The notes under the pieces: model-generated
What the model saw: the letters and a program-made list of their open reading frames with translations, nothing else
The model's database searches: none
What the model was told of the DNA's origin: nothing
Translations under genes and position numbers: made by a program
NCBI RefSeq assembly: GCF_009017415.1
Contig: NC_092406.1
Coordinates: 62,001 to 126,000 of the forward strand
Reading direction: 5' to 3'
DNA: 64,000 nucleotides
Origin: Aspergillus flavus
Lineage: Eukaryota; Ascomycota; Eurotiomycetes; Eurotiales; Aspergillaceae
In this document: positions 35,201 through 59,407 of the stretch, one piece after another
Layout: every line of letters begins with the position of its first letter
How positions within the stretch are numbered: position 1 is the stretch's first letter

Positions 35201-35951
35201 CCCCGGAAAGAACGTAGCTGTTCAGCTCAGACTTTGCGACTTTGCCTTCCTCGCCCTTGCCTTCCTCTTCTTTTGTCTCCTCCTCTCCCGTCTCCTCGTC
35301 CTTCGTCTCCTCCTTGCCTGACGCCTTGCCATCACTGGGCTTCGCCTTTGGTTCCTCCTTCACAGGCGCCTGTGTTCTCCGTTTGGCGGCGGTCTTTCCC
35401 AAGTTTACAAGGACAGAGGCAGCCGCGAGCTGCGAGAGGGTAGCGCTTGCGCTCGCCCTCTGCGACTCCCCCTCATCGTCTTCCTCATCTGGCAGAAGTA
35501 AAATCGGGATATTGGGGGCCGCACCCTCCTCGGGGTCTTTACCAACCACGGCCACCAGCTCCGCCTTCTCCTGTCCCACCCCCGTAATGGGCAACACCGG
35601 GAGATCACCATAACCACCAGTCGCATCTTTAGGGACGAGCAAAGTCAGATTCTTGACGACTGCGCCACCGATCGTGGTTTCGCGCAGGGATCCTGGCCCA
35701 GCGACGGCGGAGAGGGCAGTCTTGGCCATCGGTCCTCGAGCCATGACCGGTTCTTCATCGCTCTCGGAGTCCCCGTAGATAAGACCAGGAACGCCCTCGG
35801 GTACTTCCTCGGCATGGTCACGGAATTTCACCTGTGCATTGCGGAGGATCGAGTCCACGTATTTATCCAGCGGTTCGAACTCGACATTGTCCAGCTCTTG
35901 TTTGATCTCGCTCCCTGGGGCGAGATCGGAGGCTATAGCTTGGTCAGCCAT
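29217..35951 (-). CDS. 2,072-residue lysine/glutamate-rich modular protein, unknown function
   Basis: Ten exons (34170-35951, 33492-34121, 33311-33437, 32055-33254, 31858-32000, 31630-31796, 31450-31569, 30217-31400, 30041-30141, 29217-29981) sum to 6,219 nt with all joins GT-AG and in phase. No signal peptide or membrane helix is seen, so it is probably intracellular. The N-terminal 190 residues are acidic. About residues 190-1250 alternate beta-rich segments (for example LSADIKLGGGSFKVKGKIS, FALRGYFDGFGNQEWDILKF, FGFFGTVSFIKIPHANSPLD) with linkers made almost only of K, E and D. Residues about 1250-1610 are a continuous beta-rich domain (MGPDELSLTGSVAVGSTLT, VHGVYYDRGIHVKGMVELFG). The last about 460 residues are mostly coiled coil and end with a small globular piece (ALYEQIGLKVIKAADEKA). 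I do not recognise the family. Long conserved beta segments between disordered linkers suggest a scaffold or lipid-binding role, which is only a guess. Confidence 0.85.
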
Positions 35952-37740
35952 GGGGAGCGGCTATGGTAGAATACAAGATCTCTGGGATTGTGTTTCACCA
36001 GACACCCCGCTCTGCTTCCTAATCGCAAGGTAGAGGCAAAGACAAGGTCTGTGGGAGTGATGGGTCTTATGTCTGATTGACGGGCTGCCCCTCATCCTCG
36101 TCTACCGATGAAGTCCCCCCCCAACTACTCCGATATAGCGGTATGCACGACTTGAGCAGTCGGGCTACGACCCACCGAATCTGCTCCATCCTGCAGGTCT
36201 TGCGAGTCGCGATCGCCACGTCATGAACTCAAATTCCATCAAGCCAGCTACGTGTTTTGATCCGCTTCGAGAAGTGAAGCGGTAGCTGAGGATCTGGCAG
36301 TGCCCGATCTCTCTAGATCCGTCGACAATCGTGATTCATCCAGGTCGCTATGCATTGACTTCGCGGCAAACTTTCTGCTATCGCACCAATTATTTTTCAC
36401 TACAGATTAAGCGACCTGACCGCACAAATTCGACCCGAAGCGATGGGCGTCGGCAGAGTGAGCTGAATGGTGGGGAAGATCGACAGAAAGTCATCCCTTC
36501 TCTGGTTAAGTAGTGGATCCTACCAGACTACAGCTCGCTACCGCATCCGTGGGTGTCAATTGGATCCCAGCATCTTATCCTCCGTCCAAAGTGGACCCCA
36601 AGGTTGGCAGAAGTCTTCTCCGGATGCTTTGTACGGCTTTTGTCCAGCACGTCACAGCACATCATCATCTTACTGGGGTGCAATTCGAGAATGCAACAAT
36701 CTGCAAATCACTCGGTGTAACTCACTACAGTCGATTGACATGTCGGGTAGGCCGTAACGTACTGGACACATATAGGATACTGTTGCCAGTGGGTCATGTT
36801 CCACCACCCAGAATATATAGTTCCACACGATGATTGAGAGGTGCCTTTGCGGGTGGCATGATGGGTGTTGTTTTCAATCGGTTGCAGCCCTGATGTTGAT
36901 TCATCTGCATATTATGGAAGCAGTGTCGCGCTATTGCTATGAATTCGTCGTTAGTGGGAGTGGATGTGTTCCCCCAATCGAGGGTAATCCACTGCCCTAC
37001 TTTGAATCACTATCACCTCCAGCTGACGCAAGAATTAGTGAGATCCATCAGGGACATGGGACCTTATCCGTTCGCTCGATGAACCAGGTCGGGCACGGAG
37101 TTTTCCTTGTAGTCATGGTGGAAGAGGGGATTAGGCAAAGGGCTGACGTGACGTGCGTCGCAATATCACGAGGTGGATGTCGCATCGCCTGGTGCAGGCC
37201 TTGGAATGGACGTGGCAGATCGCTTGCCTCTATTCTTGGTTAGAGAGTAAGGCTAGAGGTGAGGATGGAGGAGTTCGTGCAATGTTATGATCAGGATACC
37301 TTCTGTACTTAGTGGTATCATCTCTGCATGATGGTCTTTTCTTTTCGAGTTGGGCCGTGAATGTGCGTTATAATCTTGTAATGGTCTTACTTGTTCTTGA
37401 TAGACTTGTTCTAATGCGAGAATGATTATTCTGTGCCTTTCCAGGCTGGTAGTATAATCCCCCCTAGAAAAATCGGCCAGGAGTGAGATCTTTCTCCCTA
37501 CATACTGGGATATATAAACGGAAATATTGAAACACCATGGCCACATGCGTAAGCCTAGGCTTTTCTCGACTTATCCGCAGACGGTTACTCCAACGACAGC
37601 GTTGACTCAATAACACGATCCTGGTTCATCCAGTCTCACCCAGGTGACACACAGGGCTGAGAAGAGCGAAATTTACATCAGATGAGAGAAACACCCCTAC
37701 TTTCTTCCTGAATTCCATTTTTATTCTTCCCTTTTATATA
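35952..37740. other. 1.8-kb intergenic region
   Basis: Divergent upstream region of the giant gene (minus) and the broken glycoprotein gene (plus). The longest open frame (36830-37243, 137 codons) has no recognisable motif, and I do not call it. A TATATA stretch at about 37735 precedes the glycoprotein gene. Confidence 0.45.
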
Positions 37741-40628: not shown

Positions 40629-43345
40629 ATGTACTTACCACGAGCCAGAAGGGCCACCCGTGCCTGTATCTGGTGTCAGCAACGCAAGGTTCGCTGTGAC
40701 GCATCGTTTGGCGGGTGTCCTTGCTCCAGATGCCTCCAAGATGGCCAGGCTTGCACATTCCGTGAGCGAGCTCCGAGGCTGTACGTTCTATGTCTCATAT
40801 TCTCTCCCTGCATAGACAATATTGAGAAAGGTCCCACACTCATGTATGTCGCAGATCAAAAGGGCTTACATACGAAAGCAGGCATCGGGCCCCGTACCCA
40901 CTACAGGGGACTGAGACTTCCACAAACCTCGTGGATAAACAGCAGAGAATTGAAATCAGTCCCGACAATGGCAACAAGTTGTCTTCGGCTAATTTGCCCA
41001 TTAGTTCGACAGCTGTGTCCATGTTGGCCTCCGATGTGGAATATTCCGCTTATCCATTCCTCGACTTTCGCTCGATGTCCTGCTTGGACAAATGGGATAT
41101 TTCATACCTAGCATCCAAAGGATGCTTTACGTTACCCAGACGACGGGTTCTGGATGAGTTTGTCAAGAAGTACTTCTTACACATCCATCCGGGTACTCCG
41201 GTACTGAATGAGGCAGAGTTCTGGCAGTTGTACTCGCAGCAGGGCGATGGTGGAACATCGAGCGGCCGGAGCATCTCTGTCTTGGTGCTACAGGCAATAT
41301 TATTCAGAACCTGTCCGGTACGCCTCTTTCGTATAATTGCCGAGATACATAAGCTAAACCCTCTAGTATGTGTCTATGGAGGCCTTGCGTGAGTGTGGGT
41401 TTAATGACAGACCCACGGCAGGAGATACCTTCTTCAATAGAGCCAAGGTTAGCACCATATTCCTGTGAGATTGCTCGAGATTCCGGGACACTAACAGTCC
41501 CCAACAGCTTATACTAGACCTCAAGGCTGAAGACCAGCCGTTAGAGAGGGCACAAGGAGCTTTGTTGCTCTCTTACCAAGCCTCCCCAGACGACCCTCAG
41601 ATCGGTAGTTTACTTCTTGCCAATGCGATACAGAATGCCCTTATCCTCGGAAAACCACCGAAGCCATCCATCAATGTAGAGAGATCAACTATCAAACGTT
41701 TATGGTGGTCGGTCCTGTTGCGCGACCGATGGATTTCCTTAGCCCTTCGCCGACGCAGCCAACTCACGCCGAAGGATTTCGATGTAGAGAACAATCCATT
41801 AGAGGAGGCAGACTTTGGCAAGGAGATACAGGAATCCAAGGTATACGATGTGCACACCAAGCGGATTCTTTTCACGGCACTCCAGCAGCAGTGCCGTCTA
41901 GCAATTATCATTACCGACATGGTGTCCCTGATTTTCTCATCGTGCGATGGTTTTCCAATGGGTTTGCCCTCAAAAGAGTTCCCGGCATGTATGAGTAGAG
42001 CTATGAAGACCAGAAATAGATTGCGCCAATGGGAAACAGAGACGCGGTATGCTCTCTCGACTGCGCCTTCTGAAGTGCATCATTCGGTTATGTCGTTCAT
42101 CAAAATGACATATGTTTATTATCAGTAGGTAGCACATGCCTATACTCTGCTATAGCCCCAGCTAACAAGCCTATGCAGCACCGCTCAAGTCCATCTAGCG
42201 CACTACGAAGCTCTTCTCCTGGAAGCCAACCTGATGTTTGTCGGACACTCGTATACTGTGCAGCTCCGGGAGACTGGAAGCTGCCTCCACAAAGCGGTTA
42301 ATGAATTGCACGATGTGTTGAAGTATTTTAGCGATACAAAGGATATTGAAGCTATCCCACTTTGCATGTAGGTACCCTGCTTGCGCCATACCCTTCTTGA
42401 CAAAGAGCACTGACTCGCCGGTCGGTGAACAGACTGGCATTCGTTGGATGGCCAATAGTGGTGGCGGCGATTGATGTAGGCCTGGCACGCAATGATGCCG
42501 AAGCCCTACAACGGCAGCGAGAGCTCAACGCTTTAGGAACCATTTACAACATCCTCATAGACCTTTATGATGTAACTAAGTTTGTTGCAGTGGGTACTAG
42601 GGAGATTCTCCACCTCGTAACAAAGATGTCGGAAAGGATGGGTACTCGAGGACGCAGACCTGCGCAGACACCAGGAGCTCAAGATCCGTACCAACGAGGC
42701 GCGGCATTTGCGAATGCGACTTTGAAGGCTTTTGAGGACAAGCATGCCACTGGGTGGTTTGACTTGTTTCTCCACTACCCCCGTATATACCTCCTCATCT
42801 CAACCTCTACTGACTACTCGCTCTCGTCCGGCCGACTACCACATGAGAACGCTTTACCGGAGGTTCTGCAATCAGTGGCCTCCGGGTTCTTGGGTTTCCA
42901 ACTCCCATGGGTGACTAAAGTATCCTTAGGTGAGACTGAACGCAAGCCGCAAGAGCCGAATGTGAGGCTTCTAGAAAATAACGAAGTAGGCGTCATAGGC
43001 CCGAGAGCACAACTGAGCAGTACTATCGAGACTGGGAGACAAATGCACGCCAGACAGCAGGTTCCCGAGCCTTTGTCTCCACCATATAACGAGGCTCGTA
43101 ATAGCCGAGGGGTCAATGGTCACAGAGAGGAATATGCAGTAAGATTCGAATTTCTCCAGTCAATGCCATCCATTGACCCAACATTTTGCCTGCCCGTATT
43201 GGAGGATGTGGTGTATCATGTACCCTGGCAAGGTCCCCTAAATGGGTCGGAGATGGCCTTCCCAGTGGGAACGGAGATCATGGGTATGCAGGAACAGACT
43301 AGTTTTAGAGATAGTCAAGGCGTCCCATACGGGTGGAAAATCTGA
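40629..43345 (+). CDS. Zn2Cys6 transcription factor, copy 1 of a paralogous pair
   Basis: Exons 40629-40780, 40855-41317, 41367-41447, 41508-42124, 42179-42367 and 42433-43345 sum to 2,415 nt, 804 residues. The zinc cluster is near the N-terminus: CIWCQQRKVRC then CPCSRCLQDGQAC, with C-x2-C-x6-C...C-x2-C-x6-C spacing. The fungal-specific regulatory domain follows: KKYFLHIHPGTPVLNEAEFW, GFNDRPTAGDTFFNRAK, RAQGALLLSYQASPDDPQ and IKRLWWSVLLRDRWISL. This resembles cutinase-type (CTF1-like) regulators. The introns after FRTCP, after NRAK, after YVYYQ and before ILAF lie at the same places as in the second copy at 56726. It probably regulates neighbouring genes, by position only. Confidence 0.85.
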
Positions 43346-43715
43346 TTACCGTACTAGACAAAACATGGGTAGCGCTCCTGTTGTGTCCAAGAAAAGAACA
43401 TTTCCGAACTGTGCATGCAGACGATGTCCTGTTATGAGCCCACGGCGTTGGAACGGTCTTAATAGGGTGGCGAAGAATGGAAGTGTCATCTTATTGACCA
43501 TGGCAGGAACAGCGGTGATTATGAGATTATTCAGGCCCCTTCGTTTGTAAGTGAGTCCGGCGTATCATAATCATACGATCGGAATATAGTTTAGCAATGC
43601 ATTGATCAACGTGCGTCCGAACCGAGAATCAAGAGCAATGACCATTCTGTCACGTATTCCACATTAGCCACAGTGCCTCCTGTATCTGGACTCAGTCCCA
43701 TCAGCCCCAGGATAC
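43346..43715. other. convergent intergenic region
   Basis: Between the 3' ends of regulator copy 1 and the small secreted-protein gene. No gene supported. Confidence 0.5.
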
Positions 43716-44334
43716 CTACAGAAGCATGGCTGCGCCTAGAGTCCTCAGAGCCATCAACACGTGGCCTACCATAGCCTCCATTTCTCGTGGTGTTCTGTGT
43801 GGTGAGAAAGAACTGGGAGCATTTTCTGTCGCCTTAGCACCATCTGTAGTGATAGTGGTAGTAATCCCAAGGTTTGCTTCCGACAGCAGCTTCATCGGAT
43901 AGGTTACACCTGGCGATCTTATATTCGTTCGAATACTGGAGATATCGTGCCTGGTGTCATTGCGAATAGTTGGGTACCCAGCGGTTGTGTTGTCACTCTG
44001 CGAGTGGTTGGCCAGTATCGTGGGCAACTGCGAATTGATCAACCCGACAAGAACTCTTGCCGCTAGTATTGAGAGTATCTGATCCGAGGCCAGTGGCAGA
44101 TCAAAGGCTAAACTGTTCAAGGAGTCCGTCTTCTCTAGCAGAATGCTTGGATCCTTGATTATGGACCTTATCAATGAGCAAATCAGCAACTATTGTCAGT
44201 ACTGCGAAAGACCATGACACTCACCTCTGCTCCCGAAAATCTCGGGTATTGGCTCGTTGGCCTGTCCAGGCAATGCTCTCTGGCCCCATAGCAATAATAA
44301 AAGCGAGCAGCGGGACGTACCGGAAGTGCCGCAT
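43716..44334 (-). CDS. small secreted protein of unknown function
   Basis: Two exons (44225-44334 and 43716-44166) sum to 561 nt, 186 residues. The N-terminus MRHFRYVPLLAFIIAMGPESIAW looks like a signal peptide. The body has a helical segment (DQILSILAARVLVGLINSQLPTIL), an NHS and an NTT glycosylation site, and a Ser/Thr-rich middle. The last 20 residues (VGHVLMALRTLGAAMLL) are hydrophobic and could be a GPI-attachment signal. I do not recognise a family. Leucine-rich helices ending near LPTIL recall the repeat of the giant secreted protein at 47515, but this is a weak resemblance. It lies between regulator copy 1 and oxygenase copy 1. Confidence 0.6.
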
Positions 44335-45989
44335 CGTGCTTGGTTGCTGTAAATAAGAAAGAGAAATGACAGACCGGGGAAGGTCTGTATCAGAACCTAT
44401 CCAAAGACGAAGGTTTAGCTGATGTCCATCCGTGAACCCAGATGTCAATTTCCTAGTTCCTGAATTGCGACCATGGCTCAATTTTGCTTGCTGTGATGCC
44501 ACGGGCCCACTTCCTGGATATCTATAACAACAGATCATGTGCCCTACATAACTATATCACAGACGAAAGACACCAAAAGGAGACATGATCGACGCCATGG
44601 CAGCGCGCCCCCGAGAGAGAGGGACTGGTCCTAACGCATCCGCGGCCCGGGCGATGATTCCGCGGTTTGACCTCCAGACCCTATAGGCTGAAAGCTACCT
44701 CTTCCACGGAAGAATGAGGTTGCGGCCTGCTAGGATACAAATCCTTTAAAGTTACACAGATTGGACACGGCAAGCCTCGACACATGCATCTGGGAATGTC
44801 TTCACTGCTAGTGTTGCAGCCGGTAAGGTGGCCTTCCCGGGCAACGAAGCGACACATTGAAAATAGTGATTAGCTTTGGACTGACAGCCCAACCGTATGG
44901 GGTGACCTGCCGAAGGCAGTGGCTGCACTGCACGGAACAAAGCCAAGCCTAGACGGTAGGGTGCTATGCTAGAGAGACAGGGAACATTTCTCTCGTTAAT
45001 GCTTAGTCGAGTATCTAACCACTTTTGACCATCTTAGTTGGGCATCACTCATTCCGCCGTACAGATTCTATGACTATTAGGGGATGTTTATGCTCTCTGA
45101 AGCATCTATTCACGCAGACCTTGGGTTCAAAGCTGAACCAGCTATTCATCAGGAAGATAGAACTGTGGGTGATCACTGCATCGAGCTCTGCGCTAGCCTA
45201 GTATCTAATGGCTTATTGTTATGATCCTCGGTAGGGGCCCCAAGTGCACCGCCAAAGATAAGCTTCAATCGGGGGCTTGTGTGAGTGTCATGTCGCATGT
45301 GGGTGGCCGATGTTAAAGGCAGGCCCAACCTGAATCCATATAGTAAGCTTCCACCTTATAGGAGATAGTATGAATCATACTGAGGAGCTATGGATGAGTG
45401 AATATTGTCGATAACCCTTACTGCCGTCTACCATGCTTTCTCCAACCCATCATTGCCTTTCATAATCCAATGAACAGGTTTGAGACCACAGACACATTCA
45501 TATATTTCCGCTATGACAACGAACACACTGAGCGGTCCGAGGCAAGAAGGCACTTCTTTCGGAGCCCACCATACCATGACGTCTCAATGAACCACTTATG
45601 GCTTTGTTGCTGCTGGTGTTCATGTAATGGTGGGTGGCTACTGACTCTAATTTCGTCAGAGCTGTTTCGTCCCCCGCATTTCACTGTCATGCCCACCTTC
45701 TGAAGCATGGGATCATCGTAACAAGACCATCCCCCGCTATATGACTAGATTGATATGGTCATAGGGAGGGGTAACCTGATCCAGGTTCCCCGGACCGACA
45801 TCGATGAGCTGTCATGAGGACAACCCCAGGAGGTGGAGAAAAGCGTACATACAAGGTCTGTTTCACATTCCCCTTATAAATCTGGAGGTAATGCCTCATA
45901 TATGACCCTGCTCGACGGTTTGCCTCATTCTGACCCTTTACCGAATCTTGACAATATACTATTAGTTTCCACACAAGATAATTCCAATC
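44335..45989. other. 1.65-kb intergenic region
   Basis: No gene supported; open frames at 44752-44946 (minus) and 45398-45703 (plus) lack motifs. It includes the promoter of oxygenase copy 1 (TATA-like box listed separately). Confidence 0.5.
45875..45880 (+). promoter_or_regulatory. TATA-like box of MpaB-family gene copy 1
   Basis: TATAAA about 110 bases before the ATG at 45990. Confidence 0.4.
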
Positions 45990-46904
45990 ATGAAAACAAA
46001 AAGTGACGCGTACATTGACCAGGAAGATGATTACTCCTCCGTCGATGTGGAGAAGGGCTATTCCATGCCTGAAATCTCTGATCTGGCAATGCTGGAGCTC
46101 CAGATGGTCGCTCGGGAAAGCATCACTTTTGTCGGAGGCCCTGCGGCAATCCTGCTCCAAATTGCACACCCTTTGGTAGGAGCTGGCGTCGCAGATCATA
46201 GCACTTTCAAAACCCGCGCTATCAGTCGGGCGGAGTATACCCAGATGTACATCTACTGTATGATCTTTGGCACTACTTCTGAAAAGGCCGCCATGAGGGC
46301 ATACGTCGATAAAGCCCACTCTCGTGTCGTGGGGCAACATAACAAACAATCATACAACGCCAAAGACCCTGAGCTCCAGGTGTGGGTGGCAGCCACGATC
46401 TATGCCACTATGGTCAATATGTACGAGTTGATCTATGGGCCGCTTAATTCGACGAGGGCCGAAAGAGTCTATCAGGCATTCTCAATCATGGGGACGTCGC
46501 TTCAAGTCTCACCCGAGATGTGGCCAAAGAACCTCACGGAGTTTCAGCTCTACTGGGACGATATGGTGAACAAGAGACTATGTGTGACGCCGGATGCCCG
46601 GGCAGTTTTGCATGATATCTTTCACCCGGCCAAAGGTCTGCCACTGTGGGCCCGGCCACTAGCTGTTATAGCGATGCCATTTGTGAAACGCCTCACCATC
46701 GAACAGTTGCCTCCCCGCGTGCGTGATCAATTCTTCCTCACATCGACCAAGTCTTCCCGAGTCATTTCTGGTCTCTTCATCACTGGCATGTCCGGTGTCT
46801 ATCCCTTCATGCCACTGTTCGTGCGACAGTTTACGAAGACCTACATGATGGGCCAGATGAGGAGGCGGATAAAGAAACGTGGTGGACAGTTGATTAAGCG
46901 CTGA
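45990..46904 (+). CDS. MpaB-family (DUF2236) oxygenase-like protein, copy 1
   Basis: One exon of 304 residues. It matches the DUF2236 family, which includes the ER-bound oxygenase MpaB of mycophenolic-acid synthesis and bacterial latex-clearing proteins with a b-type heme. The core starts at residue 46: ITFVGGPAAILLQIAHPLVGAGVADHSTF. Next come the YCMIFGT motif with VDKAHSRVVG, DPELQVWVAATIYATMV, and MWPKNLTEFQLYWDDMV. The C-terminus is basic (MRRRIKKRGGQLIKR). His in IAHP is a conserved family position. The substrate is unknown. The second copy at 54358 is clearly paralogous over the whole length. Confidence 0.85.
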   Translation: MKTKSDAYIDQEDDYSSVDVEKGYSMPEISDLAMLELQMVARESITFVGGPAAILLQIAHPLVGAGVADHSTFKTRAISRAEYTQMYIYCMIFGTTSEKAAMRAYVDKAHSRVVGQHNKQSYNAKDPELQVWVAATIYATMVNMYELIYGPLNSTRAERVYQAFSIMGTSLQVSPEMWPKNLTEFQLYWDDMVNKRLCVTPDARAVLHDIFHPAKGLPLWARPLAVIAMPFVKRLTIEQLPPRVRDQFFLTSTKSSRVISGLFITGMSGVYPFMPLFVRQFTKTYMMGQMRRRIKKRGGQLIKR

Positions 46905-47514
46905 GTAGCGTTGGGCATTGTTCGTATGACTTGATAATTCAGTTTTATATATTCCACCAATGTATGTTACTATGATCCTCAATTTATGAATACATACTGC
47001 ACTTCCCTAGATGAATTGCCGAAGCCACACACAAAAGACTTCTTTACTCGCAGACCATCAATATATACTTTGTAATTGTAGTAACCTGAAGGAACTTATG
47101 GTGTTGAAGAATATTTCTGAATGCTTGATTGCATATATTAATGTCTGTTCACAGAGCCTTGTATTATACAGCGGTCGTGTAATTGTCCAAGGGAAAGCCT
47201 ACAGGAGCTCACAGAATTGGAGTACGACATTTATTTTGTGGGATTTCGCAACGGACTCCACGCGATTCGAGAATACACTGTGGTGCCCGCGGACAACATA
47301 AATCATTACATTATTGATCAGAGCATTAGATACGGGTCACATAGGACCAAATAGTCACTCGGTTCGATCAATACACAAGCCATCCAAGTCAACACTCATC
47401 TTTGTCAGATTTCCACCACATTGTCTCAGGTGCCCTTATTCATCTTCACAGGACACACTCGGAGTTTGTCTTAGGATCGCCAACATCCGAAGACAAGCCT
47501 TAGCTCGGCTCGGC
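46905..47514. other. convergent intergenic region
   Basis: Between 3' ends of oxygenase copy 1 and the repeat-protein gene. No gene supported. Confidence 0.5.
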
Positions 47515-50500
47515 TCATATAGATCCCAAAATATTGGTCAGCAATGGCAGCAACTGCAGAGTAGAGGTTAGCAATGATTCGCCATAGAAAATAGAGGGAA
47601 AGACATACAGCTACAACTGCCTTGATCAACGGGATGATGTTTTGCACCAGTGTCGTTAGTGTGTCTCCAGTGAAAATCGGTAGGATAGCATTGACAAGGC
47701 CCGGTATTGCAGAGATGACTGTGCCGATATCATTCAGGAAGTCGGTCGTCAGAATGCCAGTCAGATCGTTCACCAGCTGAGAGATAGTGTCTCCATTCAG
47801 CAGTGGCAAAAGACTGTTCAGCAGCTTAGGCACTGCGTCTAGCAGCGAGCTCACTGCGTCACTGCCGACCACTGAAATCAAGCTCTGGACAATGGCCGGA
47901 ACTTCATTGAGTACAGACCCAACGTTGTTCAGAAGATCGGGCGTAATCAGATCCTTGAGAACATTTTCTCCTGGAACGATAATGTCTTGGTGGAATAACG
48001 GCATGGTGTCGTTGAGAAGAGGCGGCACGGTATCAACCAGCCCTCCAACGTCTCCCAGGAATTCCTGTGTCAACAGCGTGGATATGACGTTCTCTATAGG
48101 TCCAAGAAGCTCTGTGCCAAAAATGGGGACCAAGCTGTGCAGCAGTGGTGGTATCGCTGCCAGGACGGAGCCAACATCAGTAACGAATTGCTTAGTGACA
48201 AGTCCAGTGAGAGCCTTTTCAAGCGCCAGGATAATGTCCACATTCAAGATTGGCAGTATACCGTTGATGATATCTGGCAGTCCTGCAATCAGGTTTTTCA
48301 CGGCATCACTTCCGATGATGGGAATAATATCTCCCACCACAGGGATGACTGCGTTGACCAGAGAGGTCAAATCGTTGATGAACTCTGGGGTTATGATGGC
48401 CGCCAGCAGATTCTCGATCGCCGAGATGAGATCTTTGTTGAAGATTGGAACAAGGTCGTGCACCAACGGCGGGATCAGACTTGCAATACTGCTGATATCA
48501 CTGATGAACTCAGGAGTGACGATATCGGTTACGATCTGCACCAGTGATTTGATGATATCACCCTGTAGCAATGGCAGCACATCCTGTATGATTGACGGGA
48601 CAGCGGCGAGTACTGACTCAATGGCGGAAATGAAGTCAGGAGTCAGGATCTTGGGAATGAGCTCCTCAATGGGCGGAAGCAGGGGTAGAAGGGCGTTGAG
48701 TAGTCCCGGAACTGCGGCCAGGACCTTCTGGATCTGACTGATGAAATCCGGGGTAAGGAGGTTGACGATCAGGTCTTCAAGCGAGGGTATCAGTGGCAGT
48801 AGCGTGTTGATCATACCAGGGACCTTAGAGAGGAGCGATTGGACGGCTGATATTAACTCCGGAGTCAGAACCTGTTGCAGGACGTCCTCTAGCGTAGGCA
48901 GGAGAGGCAATAGCGTATTCACCAATCCCGGCACTGCGTTAAGAACCGACTCGATGACCTGTAGGAGCTCCGGTGTGAGAACCTTCGTGACCAGGTTGAC
49001 CAAGTCCGGTAGGAGCGGTAGCAGACTATTGATCAGTCCTGGTACGGCATCGAGGATGGATCCAAGTGCACTTATGAGCTCCGGTGTGAGAATCTTAGTG
49101 ATTAGATTCACTAGGTCTGGCACAAGCGGTAGCACGCTATTTATCAGTCCTGGCACTGCATCCAGGACGGATTCGAGCGCACTGATGAGCTCAGGTGTTA
49201 GAATCTTCTGAATAAATTCCTCAACCTTTGGCAGAAGGGGTAGCAGGCTATTCAGCAGCCCTGGCACGGCGTCAAGAAGCGATTCAAGGGTCTGCAGGAG
49301 CTCCGGTGTTAGAACCTTCTGGACCAAGTTCACCAAGTCCGGCACCAGAGGTAACAGGCTATTGATCAGTCCTGGTACGGCATCGAGGACTGATTCGAGC
49401 GCACTTATAAGCTCTGGCGTTAGAATCTTTTGAAGCAAGTCTTCAATCTTCGGCACGAGCGGTAACAGACTGTTTAGCAGCCCTGGCACAGCATCAAGCA
49501 GCGATTCAAGGGTCTGCAGGAGCTCCGGTGTCAGAACCTTCTTTATTAGGTTGACCAAGTCCGGCACCAGCGGTAACACGCTGTTTATCAGATCTGGTAC
49601 AGCGTTGAGCACTGATTCGAGTGCACTTATAAGCTCTGGTGTTAGAACCTTCTGAAGTAACTCCTCAATCTTCGGCACCAGCGGCAGAATCGTGTCCAAA
49701 AGACCTGGCAATGTCTGGATTAATGATTTGATGTCATTCACAAACTCTGTCGTCAGGACCTCCTTGAGCAGATTGACGAGAGGGTCCAGGAGAGGCAGAA
49801 GCTCCTGGATGATGGGTGGCAGAGCCTTGATCAATGACCCGATCTGATTTATAAAGTCTGGGGTGATAATCTCGGTAAGGAGTTCTTCCACTGGTTTGAT
49901 CAACGGCACAAGGTTATTGAATAGATCAGGCAGGTCGCTGAGCAGAGACGAGATCTGTTTGATGAAGTCCGGAGTGAGGACCTCCTTGATCAGGTTCACT
50001 AGCGGGGTGATAATATCAGATCCCAGGAGAGGAAGGATATCCTTGATGATCGGTGGCAAGGCCGTCAGCACCTCTTCGATCTCATTAAGGAAGGTCGGGG
50101 AGATGATAGTCGTCACGAGGTTCAGGAGAGGCTCCATGGTCTGGTTCGACAGGATGGGTTGAATATCATGCAGCAGCGGACGCAGAGCGGACAGAGTCGA
50201 TGACAAGTCATTCACCAGCTCTGGCGTCAGGTTGTCCGTGATCAGCGACTCCAACGCCTTGATTAAGTCGGGGTTCAGGATGGGCAAGACCTTGTTCATG
50301 ATCTCAGGGAGCTCCTGGAGGAATCGTTGGACTTCATCGCTCGTCAATATATTGACGATCTCGCCAATTATAGCTGGTAGGGCAGCGATGTCCTTCAGGA
50401 TATTGTCGATGTCGTTTAAGAATGTTCCGTTGCCAAACAACGACGTGATCCCCTCAAGTCCACTACTGCTAATTCCACTACTGTTGTTATTGTTGCTGAT

Positions 50501-51307
50501 ACTCGACGTGAGCAATGGCTTGATACTAGCCAGCGTGCTGATCATGGCCTTCGTATCCTGCATCGTCTCATTGTCAAAGAACCCAGAGGCCTGGCTGACC
50601 AGCGTGGTGGCATCCGTAATGAACGATGGTGTGAACAGGCTTAGAACGTTCTTGATACCGTCCTCGATCTCCGAGCGAGCAGAGCTACCACCAGACCCGC
50701 TGCCACCCAGTAGACCTGATAGGAGGTCTTCCAGATCAACCCCTGAGCTGCTCGTAGTCGCTGTCGGCGTCGACCCGGCGCTCTTTTCGGTTACTGTGGT
50801 CTTCTCAGAGACGGTCGAGGTTGTGGGAACGTTGACAGTGGCGGAAAGCGATACGGTCGGGAGAACATCGCCCAGAGATAATGGAAGTGTAGGAACTGGG
50901 ATGTTCAATCCCTCCGTGCTTTGGTCGCTTTCTGCTACTGTGGATTGTGCACTGTTGCTGCCATCGCCAGTGGCAGCCGGTTCCTGTGCTGCACTGGAAG
51001 GTAGGATGTTGGCTGCGCTCACTACGGCTGGCTCCTGAGTCGCACTGTTGCTGTCTTCGCCAGCTGCAGTCGACTGTTGGGCTGCATTGTCAGGCAAGAT
51101 GTTTGCGGCGCTCATCACAGCTGGCTCCTGAGTCACACTATTGTTGCCATCACCAGCTGCAGCCGATGCCTGCGCCGCATTGACAGGCAGGATGTTAGCT
51201 GCACTCATCGCAGCCGATCCCTGAGTCGCATTGTTATTATCCGAGTCCGGAGATGTGACTGCAATCGCTGCGAGCAGCAATGGGGAAAATAGAGAAACAG
51301 CCCTCAT
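47515..51307 (-). CDS. giant secreted protein with about 37-residue leucine/proline repeats
   Basis: Two exons (47609-51307 and 47515-47553) sum to 3,738 nt, 1,245 residues. The short second exon restores LLPLLTNILGSI and a TGA; reading through the intron would give an unrelated tail. Residues 1-18 are a signal peptide. Residues 30-135 hold three copies of an Ala-rich unit (SAANILPxxAAQ, about 34 residues), then a Ser/Thr-rich region to about 200. The rest is a tandem array of amphipathic units of about 37 residues of the form LTPELIsaLESVLdAVPGLInSLLPLVPdLvnLvqKv, with divergent 35-40-residue versions toward both ends. There are no obvious cysteines in the repeats. It is likely all-helical and extracellular or wall-attached, with possible hydrophobin-like or lipid-binding surface activity. 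Function is unknown. Confidence 0.85.
48600..49720 (-). repeat. coding tandem repeats, 111-bp unit
   Basis: About ten near-identical 111-bp units inside the giant secreted-protein gene. In the most regular part, units alternate between type A (ELISALESVLDAVPGLIN...PDLVNL) and type B (ELLQTLESLLDAVPGLLN...PKIEDLLQ), giving a 222-bp higher-order period. Confidence 0.85.
50930..51235 (-). repeat. coding tandem repeats, about 102-bp unit
   Basis: Three copies of an Ala/Ser/Asn-rich unit (SAANILP...AAQ...AAGDG.NS.TQEPA) near the N-terminus of the secreted repeat protein. Confidence 0.8.
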
Positions 51308-52041
51308 CCTGCGAAGAGATTGGGACTTTCACTAGCCTGGATGAGCTCCGCAATACCCCAGGAAGCAAGCAGGAGCTGACTACCCTTATTAGTAGTCCGC
51401 CAGGGGCAGACCTTGCCGAGGACCAAGTGCATCACAACAGACAACAGACTAATTGTCCTAACCTTTACCCTGCATGAAGAGTCCTTGGCGCTCTCCGCAC
51501 AGTCTTCCTAGGCGAGTCATTTTCCCTCAAGAAGCTGCCTTCGCCTAGGTAGACAGCAAGAGGCACGGGCAGTCGTGTATTCTCGTGCGGGGACCAACGA
51601 TGATGCCATATTTTGCCTCGCACTACTTGACCGCGGCCAAGCTATGAAGACGGTCAGCGATTGGAGATCGAGATCAGCGCATGTAAGCGAATCCCATCAC
51701 CTCCTCTACATAAATAAAGACCTAACTTCTTCTACCGGCCCCACTGCCGCGGACCGATGAGCCGAAAGTCTAAAGGGAGAGGAGAATTCAAACACCATCA
51801 TGAGGAAAGCTGGGGAAGCGATGTTGATCTCTCGTGGACTGCGGGGTAATTAGACTCTAACTGACTCGCTTGAAGACTATCTGCCGAGTGAAATTAACTC
51901 GGCTTATCTGATAGCTGCCTCCTGCGAGGTGGAGATATCACCGGCCACTCACACGCTAGGGCTTTGCATTTCTGAACTACTATAGGAGGAAAAATCGCCA
52001 GGATCATCTCTTGTCATTAACACTAGCTCATTAATCATTCA
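51308..52041. other. intergenic region
   Basis: Upstream of the secreted repeat gene and downstream of the DUF3712 gene, same strand. No coding region supported. Confidence 0.5.
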
Positions 52042-53460
52042 TTAATTATCACTAACTACGCGCATATTCGGGCTGGACGACAAGTCTGTGTCCCGCAAAG
52101 CGTCGGTCACATTCTGCATCACATCGGGATTCGACGACACCAAGGTGGAGATGGTCCCAAACAGCACCTTGAGAATGGGCACGTTGGCGCTGATGGTCAG
52201 GTTATTCAGCACCTTCTCAAAGTAGGGGATATGCTCCCCCTCGTAGATAGTCGACTGGCCGGATGCCGAGATCATCACATTCCCTTGGCTCAGGGCATTT
52301 GTCTCGGCGGCCAAAATGGGTGCGATGTTCTTGATCGCGTTTGGAATATCTACCACTGCACGCAAAGGGACTGAGTTATTTCCGGGCTTCAGCAGCACGT
52401 TGTTGATAGTACCATTGCCTAAAATGATATCATCGATCTTAAGATCGAGAGTGACATTTCCCTGTACGAGAAATCAGTCGCTGAAGTCCAACAGACAGGC
52501 CGGTGGTGTAGCTTACCAGAGCAAAGGTAACAACAGAGTAGTTTGGCAATGTTGCCTGTCCGAGCAGGTTCGAACCATCGGCCTCTGGTGGGAGAACCAC
52601 TCCAGCATTGTCAATAGAGAAGCCCTTCAACATGTTGAGTCCTGAAATGCCGGAGGTTAATGCTAGTGGATCAGCGAGGGCGCAGCAGCACCACTTACCA
52701 TTTAGTTCTATATCTTTGTCCAGTTTCAGAGGGACTTTGATCTTTCCCAGGTGAGCTGTCGCCTTCCCGTAAGCCGATAGCTTGAACCGTTCCGAGTAAA
52801 CCGCATTGGACAAGAACGTAGTGAACTGGTCCTGGTCCTGGATTTTAGTCGTCTGATTGGTGATGGTGATATCTGATTTCCCTTTCAGGCGGAGTCCTTC
52901 GAGCGGAACCGTCACGTACGGTTTCATTGGCTTCACACCTCGATTGAATAGACTCAGGTTGAATGCATCGATTCGAACACTGAGTCCGAGTGGAACGCTG
53001 AGAGAGGCAGACAGCGAAAACGTTAGGCCATCAGGGGTTGGTTGCATGATAGCGGCCGAGTGGATTGGTATGCTGGCATCATTGACCAACCTCTGTGCAA
53101 TCGCTGGGATAATGACGAGAAAGCTAACCGTGAGTATTAGCAATGTTCCCTCTTTTCCACAGATAACGCATTCACAGAAAGGCGGTGGTCTTACAAAACA
53201 GGCAGGAAGATTGCCAGGAATATAAACCCCAGGAGGCCATAACACAGCCAGTACCGCTTAAAGTGCTTGAAGATGCGAGGCCAAAAGCCCTTGGGCTTAT
53301 TGTATCGGAGGTCTTTGGACCTCGCTCCCAGAGCAGTACTGCCACGAGGCCCTGCCCCTTCGCCATCACGCTGCTTCTCCTTGCCTGGGGAGTCGGAATC
53401 CATAGACTCTCTCCAGACACTAGAGCTCTCAAAGGGCCTTTCCGACTCACCGATAGCCAT
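52042..53460 (-). CDS. DUF3712-family type II membrane protein
   Basis: Four exons (53195-53460, 52699-53123, 52517-52641, 52042-52461) sum to 1,236 nt, 411 residues. A charged cytosolic N-terminus of about 75 residues precedes one membrane helix (YGLLGFIFLAIFLPVFFLVIIPAIAQ). The luminal or extracellular part is beta-rich with LEA-like segments: SLSVPLGLSVRIDAFNLSLF, KVPLKLDKDIELNG, FALGNVTLDLKIDDIILGNGTINN, LTISANVPILKVLFGTI. Several N-glycosylation sites (NLS, NQT, NVT, NGT, NNS, NLT) support that side being outside the cytosol. Proteins of this family in fungi are vacuolar or surface membrane proteins; yeast Tag1 is a distant relative. It lies between the repeat gene and oxygenase copy 2. 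Confidence 0.82.
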
Positions 53461-53846
53461 GGGGTCTCACAAATCGCAAATCCCACTCTAGAGATTATCT
53501 GCAGCGTACAAGACGGAGCTCCCAGTGCGCAAGAGGCAAAAGGGAATGGCTATGGCAAGTGTAACAAGTATAGCAGGAGTGCGGGGGATAAACATTTTAT
53601 CAGTCCAAGTGGGAATCTGGGGACGACTAACCGCCGCAAACACTATCATATTGAACATCTTGGCTACCACGATCCTCTGATCATCACTGAGTCAAAAACA
53701 AGCTTGCTCTGATTGGATTAGTCTGCTATAGGCAGAGTACGGAAAGGTCGGAGTCTGTTCATTCTTGTGCCTTGGGATATTGTCGGCTCGCAATGGTAAC
53801 GAGGATATTGAGCCCTAGGAACACTCTACCTTGGCTGACTCTGGCC

Positions 53847-53877
53847 AAAAAATAAAAATAAAAATAAAATAAAATAA
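53847..53877 (+). repeat. A-rich microsatellite (AAAAT type)
   Basis: Interrupted AAAAT/AAAATA units in a run, flanked by normal sequence. Confidence 0.8.
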
Positions 53878-54248
53878 GGGCAGATCTCAGGCCTCGTGAT
53901 GGCACTACCTAGGTTAGCACCTTGGAGGTAGGACTTAGTAATTTCGTCACTTCGATTCGTTTCCTTGAATTAGGTTTTTCCATCTGAAGGATTTACCCTA
54001 TCGATACTCACAATTTGACTTTGTCAGATGTGTCCTAGAGGCTGTGCATTGCTGCAGGCGTGCCTCGGACCGTTTACCACGGAACAAAATCCTTCCAGCG
54101 CCAATTTAATTTATTGAGCTTGATTAATTTATCCCTCTTGTTTCCCCGCAGATCCACGCCTCGGACTGCAGACCGCGGTCGTGGAATTAAATTCGTGGAT
54201 GACAGTCGCTACAGTCTTTGTGTGTGGCCAAATCCGTAGGATAAAGGG

Positions 54249-54257
54249 TTATATATA
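54249..54257 (+). promoter_or_regulatory. TATA-like box of MpaB-family gene copy 2
   Basis: TTATATATA about 100 bases before the ATG at 54358, a spacing close to that of copy 1. Confidence 0.45.
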
Positions 54258-54357
54258 CGAAAGCCATGCTGCGATATCTCGCTCTTGCGATGGAGTGGGA
54301 TTCTGTGTGCAAAGTTTCTACTAGCACGCGTTATCTACATTCTTGAAAAGCCTCACA

Positions 54358-55275
54358 ATGGCCAAAACAGAAGTTCCAAGAGCCACTACGCCTGACTCGG
54401 AGGAGTCCAAGCGAGACGACACCCCGGAGCCATGGCAATCCAGTATCTCGGAAAAGCCCACTCTGAACATGGTGCCGGACGACGAGCTGCTTGACTCCCT
54501 ACAAAGTACGGAGAATGTGCAGAAGATCGTGCGAGAAGGCGTTTTGCTCGCCACCGGGGCTGCAGCCATCCTCTTGCAAGTTGCCATGCCCGGCGTCGCG
54601 AAGGGCGTCGATAATCACAGCAGCTTTGCCTACCGGCCCCTCCACCGTCTGCGGACAACGTTGACCTTCGTCTACTGCATGGCATTCGGCACCAAGGACG
54701 AAAAGCGCGCCATCATCTCCATGGTCAATCGTGCCCACGCCGAGGTCAAAGGCCCGGATTATTCGGCGGATGACCCGCACCTTCAGATGTGGGTGGCAGC
54801 CACCTTGTATGCCAGTGGCATCTTCATGTATGAGGAGGTCTACGGCACCATGGAGCCCCGCAACGCGGATATGATCTATCGAGAATACTCCGTCCTGGCG
54901 CGGTCCCTGCGTGTGCCACAGGAGATCTGGCCCAAGGACCGAAAGGCCTTCTGGCGCTACTGGGACAAGACGGTGGCCAACCTGGAAGTTACCGATCACG
55001 CCCGCAATATCGCCCAGGACCTGCTGTATAACAAGGAGTTGTTCCTGCCCCTGCGTATGGGTCTGCCCTTTGTGCGCTTGATGACAGCTCAGATGCTACC
55101 CCAGCGTCTGCGCGTCGAGTATGGCATGAGCGACGGACGTCTGCGGCGCTCGATCTATAAATCGGTGATTCTGGGAGCCAAGATTGCATACCCTATCATC
55201 CCGCGATTCATCCGGACCGTCCCCATGAAGTACTACATGAGAGACATGCGTCGTCGGTTGAGAAGGATGGCCTAA
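54358..55275 (+). CDS. MpaB-family (DUF2236) oxygenase-like protein, copy 2
   Basis: One exon of 305 residues from ATG 54358. Landmarks are VLLATGAAAILLQVAMPGVAKGVDNHSSF, YCMAFGTKDEKRAIISMVNRAH, DPHLQMWVAATLYASGIFMYEE, IWPKDRKAFWRYWDKTV and a basic C-terminus (YYMRDMRRRLRRMA). All have counterparts in copy 1 at 45990. Unlike copy 1, the IAHP position reads VAMP, so a His that is conserved in much of the family is Met here; whether that His is a heme ligand in this subfamily is not known to me. The N-terminal 55 residues are polar and unrelated to copy 1. It lies between the DUF3712 gene and a small membrane protein, on the same strand as regulator copy 2. Confidence 0.85.
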   Translation: MAKTEVPRATTPDSEESKRDDTPEPWQSSISEKPTLNMVPDDELLDSLQSTENVQKIVREGVLLATGAAAILLQVAMPGVAKGVDNHSSFAYRPLHRLRTTLTFVYCMAFGTKDEKRAIISMVNRAHAEVKGPDYSADDPHLQMWVAATLYASGIFMYEEVYGTMEPRNADMIYREYSVLARSLRVPQEIWPKDRKAFWRYWDKTVANLEVTDHARNIAQDLLYNKELFLPLRMGLPFVRLMTAQMLPQRLRVEYGMSDGRLRRSIYKSVILGAKIAYPIIPRFIRTVPMKYYMRDMRRRLRRMA

Positions 55276-55746
55276 TGCGTTACGACCAGTTTTGTCATGT
55301 TTGATGATTATTCCCTCATTTCCATGCAGTCTGCGCTGTGTTTCTGTTTCTATTCATTGGCTCTACTGGCACTCTCGACCCTCACAGTCAATGTGCCAAG
55401 TACGCTCTCTGTATTACTCTCATGAATAGGCCGTTTTGCCCTCGACTTTTCGATAGGTTATGTATTTACGCGTATTCAACCAGACTGAAAAATGAATTAA
55501 CTACAAATCAAATCGCTTTAATGGGTATTGTAGCACTTTGGAAAATTGTAACATATGAACGATTACGGCACGTTAGGTTTATCCACAAAGAAGACTTATG
55601 TATACATGTTGATCCAGAGGTCCTAGATAGACTTATGGCCAGATTGATAAAAGCCAGATAATGAGTCTACCCAAAGTGCGAGACCAAGAATCACCGCACT
55701 ATAAAGGCAGCACCCAGTATGAGCCTCAGGAAACCACTGTGACGAG
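55276..55746. other. intergenic region
   Basis: 3' side of oxygenase copy 2 and of the small membrane protein gene. No gene supported. Confidence 0.5.
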
Positions 55747-55980
55747 TTAGCTTAGTTCATTCAGCTCAGCATGGAATGACTTACTGTACAGGTAGACGAC
55801 AGCAAGGAAGACAATCCACGAGAGTGTCCAGCACAGGACTCCCTCCAGATGATTCCTGAGTCGTGGCCATGCATATGATTGTTCAAACCAGCCGAGTCTA
55901 CCTGGGTAGTCGGCCGCCTCGAGGTCCACCTCCTCTTTGGCATGTGGAATATTCAGAAATTCCTGCTTCACTTGTCCCAT
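55747..55980 (-). CDS. small single-pass membrane protein
   Basis: An open frame of 77 residues: a polar N-terminus with acidic patches, then one hydrophobic helix (WTLSWIVFLAVVYLY). A good donor (GTAAGT) follows the helix codons, so an intron may end the protein as YLYMVS. No homologue is recognised. The composition and clear helix make it more than a random frame, but support is modest. Confidence 0.45.
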   Translation of the reverse strand: MGQVKQEFLNIPHAKEEVDLEAADYPGRLGWFEQSYAWPRLRNHLEGVLCWTLSWIVFLAVVYLYSKSFHAELNELS

Positions 55981-56725
55981 GATTTAGTGCCAGACTCTCG
56001 TCGTGGGAAGGGGATTTGAGGAACAAGGGGTTGGAGGAACGAGACGTGATTTCTTGAAAGAAAACGAGTGCCGTGATCAGGGTTGAATTAATGAAGGCAG
56101 TTATCGCCTGAGCGCAATGGGCCAGGCGGGTTCAGAACATAAGGACAAGGAAGACATCGCCGGCTCCTATCACCTATCCCCCCATAAATGTGGTCAATAG
56201 GTAGATCAAGACGGTGTGCACAGACAACGCCGCTGCATCTTCACACGACACTAGCAGAATGATCATCACCCGATTCGCTAGATGAGCAGAATGGTCCGAG
56301 GAGAACCCCGCAGGTCGATCATAGCCTGTCGCTGCCAATTAAGATTTCCCCCGCGGGGGATATTGCCTACCGCGGGCCGCAAGACTAGACTGGGCTCTGA
56401 TTCAACAAGAGTCAGGCGCGTGCTGAATAGTATTGGAGCAGATTGGAGATGCCCCAGAAACGCACACCTGGGGAAAGGATCGTGTGTGACGCGGCAATCA
56501 GCCATGGCCGTTCAGAGTACGAAAGGCAGGTCAGCAGGAAAGCCCTGGTTCATATCTAACCGCTGGACAGCCTTTGGAACACCCCAAAGCCGCTGAATTT
56601 TCACAGCTGTCATATCTGCTGCTCGTTGCGATCGCTGTTGCGCGCCATATTCCAAAGTTCAGAGATTCTATTCATTCGGATTCTCTTACACTGATTAGCC
56701 GCACTAGCTCGTCTCCTGAGATACC
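55981..56725. other. divergent intergenic region
   Basis: Between the small membrane protein (minus) and regulator copy 2 (plus). No gene supported. Confidence 0.5.
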
Positions 56726-59407
56726 ATGTACCAGACTAAAGGCCCTCGGCCAACGGAGAAGCGTATCCGAAGGGCGGCTGCGGCCTGCTACCGGTGCCAT
56801 GCACGCAAGGTGCGCTGCGATGCATCGATTCTCGGCTATCCCTGCACGAACTGCGTGCTCGACGGCAGAACGGACTGTACTCTGCGCCCCAACGCTACCA
56901 CACGTTTCAAGAATCTGAAACAGAGCCAGCGTCGGAACACTGTCCAGGGTTTGGTGAAGCCCAATGAGGAGGAACATACCACCCTGAATAGCAGCGGAGA
57001 GCCCTGCGAAACCACTCCCCAATCCGCCATGTTGCCACGAGCCTCTGGGTTCCCCGAACTGTTAGAGTCGCCCCGCCAGACCGAAACAATATACGAGTGT
57101 GAGTCTAATGCTTCGACTCAGATACTGGACCCACTGTCGGTGAGCTCGCCTCGGATGAGACTGGACAGTCTCGGGGCTAGTTCTTCTGGGCAACACTTTA
57201 TAGATCTCAATGCCTTATCTCTGCTTCCGATGAGCGATGCGCATATTCTCGTGACAGGTGGCTGTCTGGACATGCCCCCCAAGTCTGCGATGGATGTTTT
57301 CCTCATGAAATACTTCCTCCTCGTGCATCCGTCGGTCCCCATCTTGAATGAAGTCGAGTTTTGGAACACATATCTCCAATCAGAGGACACCAACTACGCA
57401 CCGAAAATCTCCCTCTTTGTATTTCAAGCCATGCTTCTTTCGAGCTGCGCAGTATGTGCCCTACTCCATCATGTGGCCGCGTGACCTCAAATTAACCATG
57501 GACATGATGTTGCAGTTTGTGCCCGTCGAGGTCATCCAGCAATGTGGCTTCAACGATGCATGCGAAGCGAGAAGAACGTTTTATCACCGCGCCAAGGTAT
57601 GTCTTGCCTTGATTTCTATCCATGCCGAGAAGAAGATTGTCCAGCTACTAATGTGCGCTCGGCAATACAGATGCTGTACGATACTAACTTCGAGAGCGAC
57701 CCCTTAGCACGAGCCCAAGGCGCCCTGCTGCTGACCTTCCATACCACAGCTGAAGACCCCCAAGCAACGATGACCTGGAACATGTGCGCCATCCACAATG
57801 CAACCGCTACAGGCTTGGGTCTCCATCCTTCGCTCCAGGATCCCAATAGGTGTGCCAAGAAACGACTGTGGTGGTCTATCTTTGTCCGCGATCGCTTCTT
57901 GTGGCTTGGCCGCCACCGTCGGCCTCAGTTCACCTCCGCGAACTTCAGCTTGAACATTGACTATCTACAGGAGGAAGAAATGACCAATGAAATCACCATG
58001 TCCCCGTTTTATGAGCCCAATGTCAAGCGCCTCCTGCTGAAAGTGTTCCAGGCCCAATGCCGGCTGGCTGTGATCCTGACGGATGTCATCACCATTTCGT
58101 TCTCGGCATCGGACGGGGATGCTCCGCGTTTATCACTTCAGGAGCTGGATATATATCTCACAAGGATTAAGCAGCTACGAGCGGGGCTCGCTCAGTGGGA
58201 AGAAACGGTTTACTCCCCTTTGCATCATACTGGCATCGCTGAGCTGGGGACGGTTGGAATTATCATCAATCTAACTGCTTTGCACTACCAGTGAGTGACT
58301 ATCGGTGAACATGATACGGTGATCTCGCTCACAAGATTGATAGAACCGCTCGCATGGTCCTAGGCAATTATGAAACGCTCCTTGTCGAAAGCCACCTCGA
58401 TATGATCCAAGATCGCTCGGCGTCAATCCTGTTGCCTGTGGCCAAGGAATTGAAAGATGCCGTATTTCAGATCACCCAGAAGCTTGGTTATTTCAGCTCA
58501 AGGAACCTAACGGAACATATCCCATTGAGTGTGTAAGTTCTGAGAGGCTTTGCCCCGCTCTTTGCAACAGACCCTAGCTCAAGTTTGAGATCCAAATCCA
58601 GGCGAGAATGCCGCCCAGACGGACCGTTTTCTCTTAACTGACCAGTACTAAAGGCTTGCTTATTGTGGCACTCCAATGGTGCTTGCGGCGATAGATGTCA
58701 AGCTGTCTATGTCGTATTCGGACATGATTGATCGGAAACGTACTCTTGACAAATGCTCCGAAGTCATAGATCAATCACGGAGAGTGTACGACGTCACCGA
58801 ACTATTCTCCCAAGGCACGAATCAAATCCTACACCTGGCATACGCCATTACCAAAAACCTGCTTCTAGAAAGCAATGTGCCAGAGACGGGCGCATCGCTG
58901 CTCGAAGACTCAAAATGCCTCGAAGGTAATGAGCTAGAGATGAAAGGGCGTGATAAGCTTTTGTCTCCTGCATTTAAAAGGCTGCGCATAAGAGGTTGGG
59001 CCGAGGCGTTCCTGAAATACCCCCGTGCATATCTCTTGATATCAACGTGTATTGATTCTAGCCTTGCAACTGGCCGCCTTCCACGAAACGAGCTCCTTCC
59101 GCCGATAATCAGAGACACGACGTACGTGATTCTGGGACTTCCAAAGCTTCCGTGGACAATACGGCTTGCCACCGGGGCCACAAGCGTGCCCACTGAGGAG
59201 AGCGTGCAGAAGGATCAACGTCGGTTAAGAGGTCGACCGGAAAGTGTGTCTCTCAACGATACATGGTATTTAAGCCTACTTCAAAATGTCGACGCAGACC
59301 CGTCTCTTTTTGATGCTTGCGCACTCGATGGAGGATCACGTAACGGCAATGTCGAGACCACTATAAAATATCTCACGGACGATAATCATGCAACCGTCAC
59401 TTCTTGA
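56726..59407 (+). CDS. Zn2Cys6 transcription factor, copy 2 of a paralogous pair
   Basis: Five exons (56726-57451, 57516-57596, 57671-58290, 58344-58532, 58654-59407) sum to 2,370 nt, 789 residues. The zinc cluster is CYRCHARKVRC...CTNCVLDGRTDC near residue 20. The regulatory domain reads MKYFLLVHPSVPILNEVEFW, GFNDACEARRTFYHRAK, RAQGALLLTFHTTAEDPQ and KKRLWWSIFVRDRFLWL, each with a counterpart in copy 1 at 40629. Introns after LSSCA, after HRAK, in HYQ and before VLAA match copy 1, which points to duplication rather than convergence. Copy 1 has an extra intron just after the zinc cluster. Likely a regulator of the genes between the two copies. Confidence 0.87.

Follow-up and report, generated by a model that had tools for sequence, protein, structure and literature searches.

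In the genome of Aspergillus flavus (37.7 Mb in 8 contigs) we find a real and recurring gene module, which consists of a divergent gene pair encoding a DUF3712 protein and an MpaB-family protein, together with a secreted-type leucine-rich repeat protein, and which at two of its three places also includes a Zn2Cys6 regulator belonging to one clade. The locus described here spans positions 40629–59407 of the window, the analyzed 64-kb stretch of DNA at C1:62001–126000, which starts 62 kb from the contig end. It holds seven genes in the order REG1(+), SSP(−), MPAB1(+), GIANT(−), DUF3712(−), MPAB2(+) and REG2(+), REG standing for the regulators, MPAB for the MpaB-family proteins, GIANT for the repeat protein and SSP for a small secreted-type protein. 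In the literature searched, outside of which lie most subscription journals, we recognized no earlier description of this gene set and found no published work under the term DUF3712.

Recurrence of the gene set

Genome-wide, PF09995, the MpaB family, is present at 8 loci, and PF12505, the DUF3712 family, gives 13 matches at 8 loci, one of them borderline. DUF3712 and MPAB genes are divergent neighbors at three places, namely the window, C8:2.42 Mb and C4:1.75 Mb, and three of the four repeat-protein loci lie at these places. The REG clade comprises four regulators, of which three are likewise found at DUF3712-MPAB places, two of them in the window. At C8 the order is DUF3712(−), MPAB(+), REG(+) and then the repeat gene, the first three being collinear with the window. 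At C4 a repeat-bearing open reading frame (ORF) of 160 residues is located some 540 bases beyond the MPAB gene, and the 30 kb read there contain no match to REG1 or REG2 at E 1e-3. The gene set lies together more often than expected by chance, as 3 of 8 DUF3712 loci are within 3 kb of an MPAB gene (0.010 expected), 3 of 4 repeat loci within 7 kb (0.012 expected) and 3 of 4 REG-clade loci within 6 kb (0.010 expected), although these odds overstate independence because the three places are duplicates of one another.

Adjacency outside the A. flavus genome was read from printed locus tags only, among the best 120 of 160 DUF3712 matches and the best 120 of 474 MPAB matches, and the comparison used the 98 DUF3712 and 33 MPAB rows whose tags are simply numeric. 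Among these listed matches, 20 of the 33 MPAB rows have a DUF3712 row under the same assembly prefix; the two numbers are consecutive in 14 of these cases, two apart in 3 and not near each other in 3. The 14 adjacent pairs come from 13 assemblies of Aspergillus and Penicillium. JGI-style DRAFT numbers, which are less surely positional, underlie three of these adjacent pairs and two of the pairs numbered two apart. The distant cases are T. proteolyticus, with contigs of equal size and JGI-style numbers far apart, and P. riverlandense and P. paradoxum, in which the DUF3712 and MPAB contigs differ in size. According to the tags, a DUF3712 gene stands between two MPAB genes, as in the window, in A. 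nanangensis (FE257_007494, _007496, _007497) and A. ambiguus (203089, 203091, 203092). Judging by sequence, neither of the outer MPAB proteins is the counterpart of MPAB1, with which that of A. nanangensis shares 39.7% identity (against 62.5% with the C8 copy) and that of A. ambiguus 38.6%; the MPAB tree gives no firm placement for either of them. The expectation of the earlier note that the set is kept together thus holds for parts of it within the A. flavus genome and, by locus tags, for DUF3712-MPAB in other fungi, but the duplicated pairs themselves are not close paralogs.

Age of the pairs and anatomy of the locus

Gene models were rebuilt from splice signals, and all seven are in frame without internal stops. 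These models and the Pfam matches agree with the order, strands and coordinates that had been given for six genes (Table 1). The mirrored order seen earlier applies to those six, but is not exact, as the SSP gene between REG1 and MPAB1 had been overlooked. The repeat protein and the DUF3712 protein indeed occupy the center, where two surface proteins had been placed, but "secreted" describes GIANT better than "surface" because no membrane or glycosylphosphatidylinositol (GPI)-like tail is seen by eye after its 3′ intron.

Both REG and both MPAB genes lie on the plus strand, which confirms that the locus is no simple inverted duplication; together with identities of 38% (MPAB) and about 30–33% (REG, over longer stretches), it rules out a recent tandem duplication as well. 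The two regulators and the two MpaB/DUF2236 proteins are paralogous as claimed, and both of the latter carry PF09995. The expectation that the pairs would be close paralogs is not borne out: MPAB2 shares 59% identity with the C8 copy versus 38% with MPAB1 (MPAB1 and the C8 copy share 41%). From these identities we regard the duplicated MPAB and REG pairs as old and the window as holding two old, divergent sets next to each other. The mirrored arrangement seems to reflect how these two sets lie and is probably incidental; the chance statistics given above concern the gene set and not this order.

Table 1. Features of the locus (positions in the window).
Feature	Position	Strand	Remarks
REG1, Zn2Cys6 regulator, 804 residues	40629..43345	+	Zn_clus E 3.8e-6, Fungal_trans E 4e-15
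REG1 exons	40629-40780, 40855-41317, 41367-41447, 41508-42124, 42179-42367, 42433-43345	+	splice-signal model
SSP, small secreted-type protein, 186 residues	43716..44334	-	exons 44334-44225, 44166-43716; no Pfam match
SSP/MPAB1 intergenic stretch	44335..45989	.	one GCCTCGGACYG site, 45533-45543, minus strand
MPAB1, MpaB/Lcp-family protein, 304 residues	45990..46904	+	PF09995 E 6.3e-63
GIANT, secreted-type leucine-rich repeat protein, 1245 residues	47515..51307	-	37-residue repeats; intron 47554-47608
DUF3712 membrane protein, 411 residues	52042..53460	-	PF12505 E 1e-38
DUF3712/MPAB2 intergenic stretch	53461..54357	.	two GCCTCGGACYG sites, 54062 and 54158
MPAB2, MpaB/Lcp-family protein, 305 residues	54358..55275	+	PF09995 E 8.2e-60; divergent from DUF3712 gene
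REG2, Zn2Cys6 regulator, 789 residues	56726..59407	+	Zn_clus E 1.6e-6, Fungal_trans E 8.1e-13
REG2 exons	56726-57451, 57516-57596, 57671-58290, 58344-58532, 58654-59407	+	splice-signal model

The intron positions that the earlier note had described as common to the two regulators are indeed shared: the four introns of REG2 have the phases of REG1 introns 2–5 and, judged by eye, correspond to them in position along the protein, REG1 having one extra. They do not date the pair, because the C8 regulator has five introns with the phases of all five of REG1 at matching places, which rules them out as the mark of a young duplication. In a tree of own-genome rows, which includes 13 paralogs as partial stretches and leaves out one match without a locus, REG1, REG2, the C8 regulator and a regulator at C4:3699 kb separate from the 12 other rows with a support of 100/100. 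Within this clade REG1 joins the C8 regulator rather than REG2, albeit weakly (85/74, under the 95/80 mark).

MPAB1 and MPAB2 match positions 2–220 and 5–219 of the 231 positions of the PF09995 profile with 213 and 203 bits, respectively, at a cut-off of 23. MPAB1 is divergent, with a best identity to other rows of about 41–45%, and forms a long branch without close kin in the MPAB tree, in which two further own rows are long branches too; the tree drew on 25 of the 120 database rows and on 5 of the 8 own loci, and as its rows were gathered by an MPAB2 search, relatives of MPAB1 may be under-sampled. R97, T101 and H127 are the same in all 29 aligned rows, MPAB1 being one of them, and are candidates for the heme-pocket Arg, Thr/Lys and His; their putative equivalence to Lcp residues is based on spacing, and the place of Lcp K167 would be Thr or Tyr in the MPAB alignment. 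No sequence match was found for MPAB in the PDB, and we know of few fungal MpaB/DUF2236 proteins with a known role.

All 411 residues of the DUF3712 model are identical to those of P0001, a public A. flavus protein. The protein has a long N-terminal helix with a beta-rich region behind it, and structural comparison returned 1xo8, which we take to be an LEA protein, 1yyc and TMEM106B (8b7d) among its matches; the beta-rich region is possibly LEA-2-like. Relatives of DUF3712 are also present in A. oryzae (P0005) and A. nidulans (AN2679). Among the 120 DUF3712 rows listed, 24 are 628–659 residues long; one of these, A. nidulans AN2679 (P0022), is a DUF3712 protein that ends in about 240 residues of hydrophobic repeats.

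GIANT starts with a signal-like segment and a Ser/Thr/Gln-rich stretch (both by eye), followed by the repeats, for which autocorrelation peaks at 74, 37 and 111. A stretch of 930 residues contains 406 Leu, Ile and Val, 90 Pro and 2 Arg at a net charge of −72, and the whole protein is free of Cys. The 55-base intron near the 3′ end of the gene removes the odd tail of the raw ORF. The public protein set yielded the neighboring DUF3712 but not GIANT, not even for A. flavus. Searched with the protein at C1:5.5 Mb, the repeat family has at least four loci in the genome (C1:5.5 Mb, C8:2415 kb, the window and C4:1752 kb), and a hidden Markov model (HMM) of the repeat built from this protein matches C8 with 2.7e-36, the window with 9.4e-17 and C4 with 1.3e-10. 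The C1 protein itself (C1:5505.0–5506.7 kb) has repeats of 38 residues and, counted from the first likely Met, is 749 residues long; near its gene neither MPAB nor DUF3712 gave a match. The C8 gene (C8:2414.8–2416.2 kb) is split over frames into ORFs of 376 and 113 residues and is either broken or misread in the assembly. SSP has a hydrophobic N-terminus (by eye) and its gene is divergent from MPAB1. The repeat HMMs match neither SSP nor the listed DUF3712 proteins, and no Pfam family, and thus not the HsbA family, scored above cut-off for GIANT or SSP.

The motif GCCTCGGACYG, which occurs in both shared upstream stretches, holds the published Far/Ctf1 box CCTCGG, and this box appears 9 times in the upstream stretches of the cluster versus 3.0 expected. 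We consider these putative regulator sites suggestive only. Elsewhere in the window, a Cerato-platanin-like protein is encoded at 9117–9800 (−; PF07249, E 1e-6), and three long ORFs of 398, 422 and 607 residues at 30212–35960 (−) have no Pfam match at E 0.001.

Possible function and rival readings

A lipid- or surface-related role of the locus is a sensible guess. Tentatively, and with rather less than even confidence, we read the gene set as a module for handling hydrophobic substrates. REG1 and REG2 would sense a lipid-like signal and activate the set, and outside the cell the acidic, leucine-rich and probably helical repeat protein would coat or solubilize the substrate. With its one N-terminal helix as an anchor, the DUF3712 protein might bind the substrate or pass it on at a membrane through its possibly LEA-2-like region. 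MpaB-type heme oxygenases would then cleave C=C bonds of an isoprenoid or an unsaturated chain, and the products could enter beta-oxidation. We infer the heme chemistry, the substrate, the locations and interactions of the proteins as well as the control by REG1 and REG2. Our confidence in this module is lowered by the fact that the likeness of REG1 and REG2 to Far/Ctf1 fatty-acid regulators is presumed from their motifs; the Zn_clus and Fungal_trans domains of both are present in Far/Ctf1 regulators, but their combination is common to many fungal regulators. A stronger version, which we think improbable, would see here an undescribed fungal machine against water-insoluble unsaturated hydrocarbons, recurring in Aspergillus and Penicillium and composed of an apolipoprotein-like giant, an LEA-2-type membrane shuttle, MpaB heme oxygenases with ozonolysis-like activity and a dedicated Zn2Cys6 clade.

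Three other explanations have to be weighed against the substrate module. The locus could be a tailoring remnant of specialized metabolism, in which the MpaB-type enzymes would cut the prenyl chain of a small metabolite, as MpaB does in the synthesis of mycophenolic acid, under pathway-specific cluster regulators. MpaB likewise belongs to a biosynthetic cluster, and a small Fusarium terpene cluster includes Zn(II)2Cys6 and DUF2236 genes (PMC5483468); the nearby contig end and a P450 fragment at 19365–19871 would also suit this explanation. Yet no polyketide, terpene or peptide synthase was recognized among the seven cluster proteins and ten further window ORFs scanned, giant secreted repeat proteins are generally unusual in metabolite clusters, and the DUF3712-MPAB pair occurs in at least 13 Aspergillus and Penicillium assemblies, all of which makes a remnant of this kind unlikely in our view. 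We are equally doubtful of a surface or developmental module, in which the repeat protein would coat spores or hyphae, DUF3712 would anchor or export it and the oxygenases would modify coat lipids. The signal-like N-terminus of GIANT, its length, its lack of Cys and its acidic leucine-rich repeats fit such a coat, but a wall-binding domain was not found with Pfam, nor was a GPI-like end apparent by eye; similarly, the AN2679 tail hints at cooperation of DUF3712 domains with hydrophobic repeats, but is not matched by the repeat HMMs of the GIANT family.

Mere hitch-hiking, with three old segmental copies of one neighborhood whose genes are functionally unconnected, appears quite unlikely. The copies are duplicates, which inflates the chance statistics, and the set is partly decaying, as seen in the split C8 repeat gene; nevertheless, linkage endures at 32–59% identity, a repeat ORF remains at C4, and the adjacency of DUF3712 and MPAB extends to the other assemblies. 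The linkage ties DUF3712, MpaB, the repeat-protein family and the regulator clade together, turning four unknowns into one testable system. Should the substrate be rubber-like, terpenoid or wax-like, this would add fungal alkene-cleaving enzymes outside metabolite clusters.

Comparison with known systems

In the FarA response of A. oryzae and A. nidulans, a Zn2Cys6 regulator controls a hydrophobic-surface-binding protein and degrading enzymes via a CCTCGG box (PMC4117967, PMC5068947). The locus resembles this cutinase/HsbA response in its Zn2Cys6 regulators and its CCTCGG box, but differs in that its seven genes are clustered and include no cutinase or lipase, and that GIANT matches no Pfam family above cut-off; in the tree of own-genome rows, the REG clade stands apart from 12 others. 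With MpaB and the bacterial MpaB/Nro1 oxygenases, MPAB1 and MPAB2 share PF09995 over 207–221 residues and, putatively, the invariant Arg, Thr and His. Unlike MpaB of mycophenolic acid synthesis, they have no linked synthase that was recognized among the proteins scanned, and unlike all these systems they are paired with DUF3712 and a repeat protein, with two divergent copies in one locus. DUF3712 is reminiscent of LEA-2/TMEM106B luminal-type domains, with a membrane helix and a beta-rich region after it. The Fusarium STC1 germacrene cluster likewise combines a regulator and a DUF2236 gene in a small cluster, but is built around a terpene cyclase, and the available part of its description mentions neither DUF3712 nor a repeat protein (PMC5483468).

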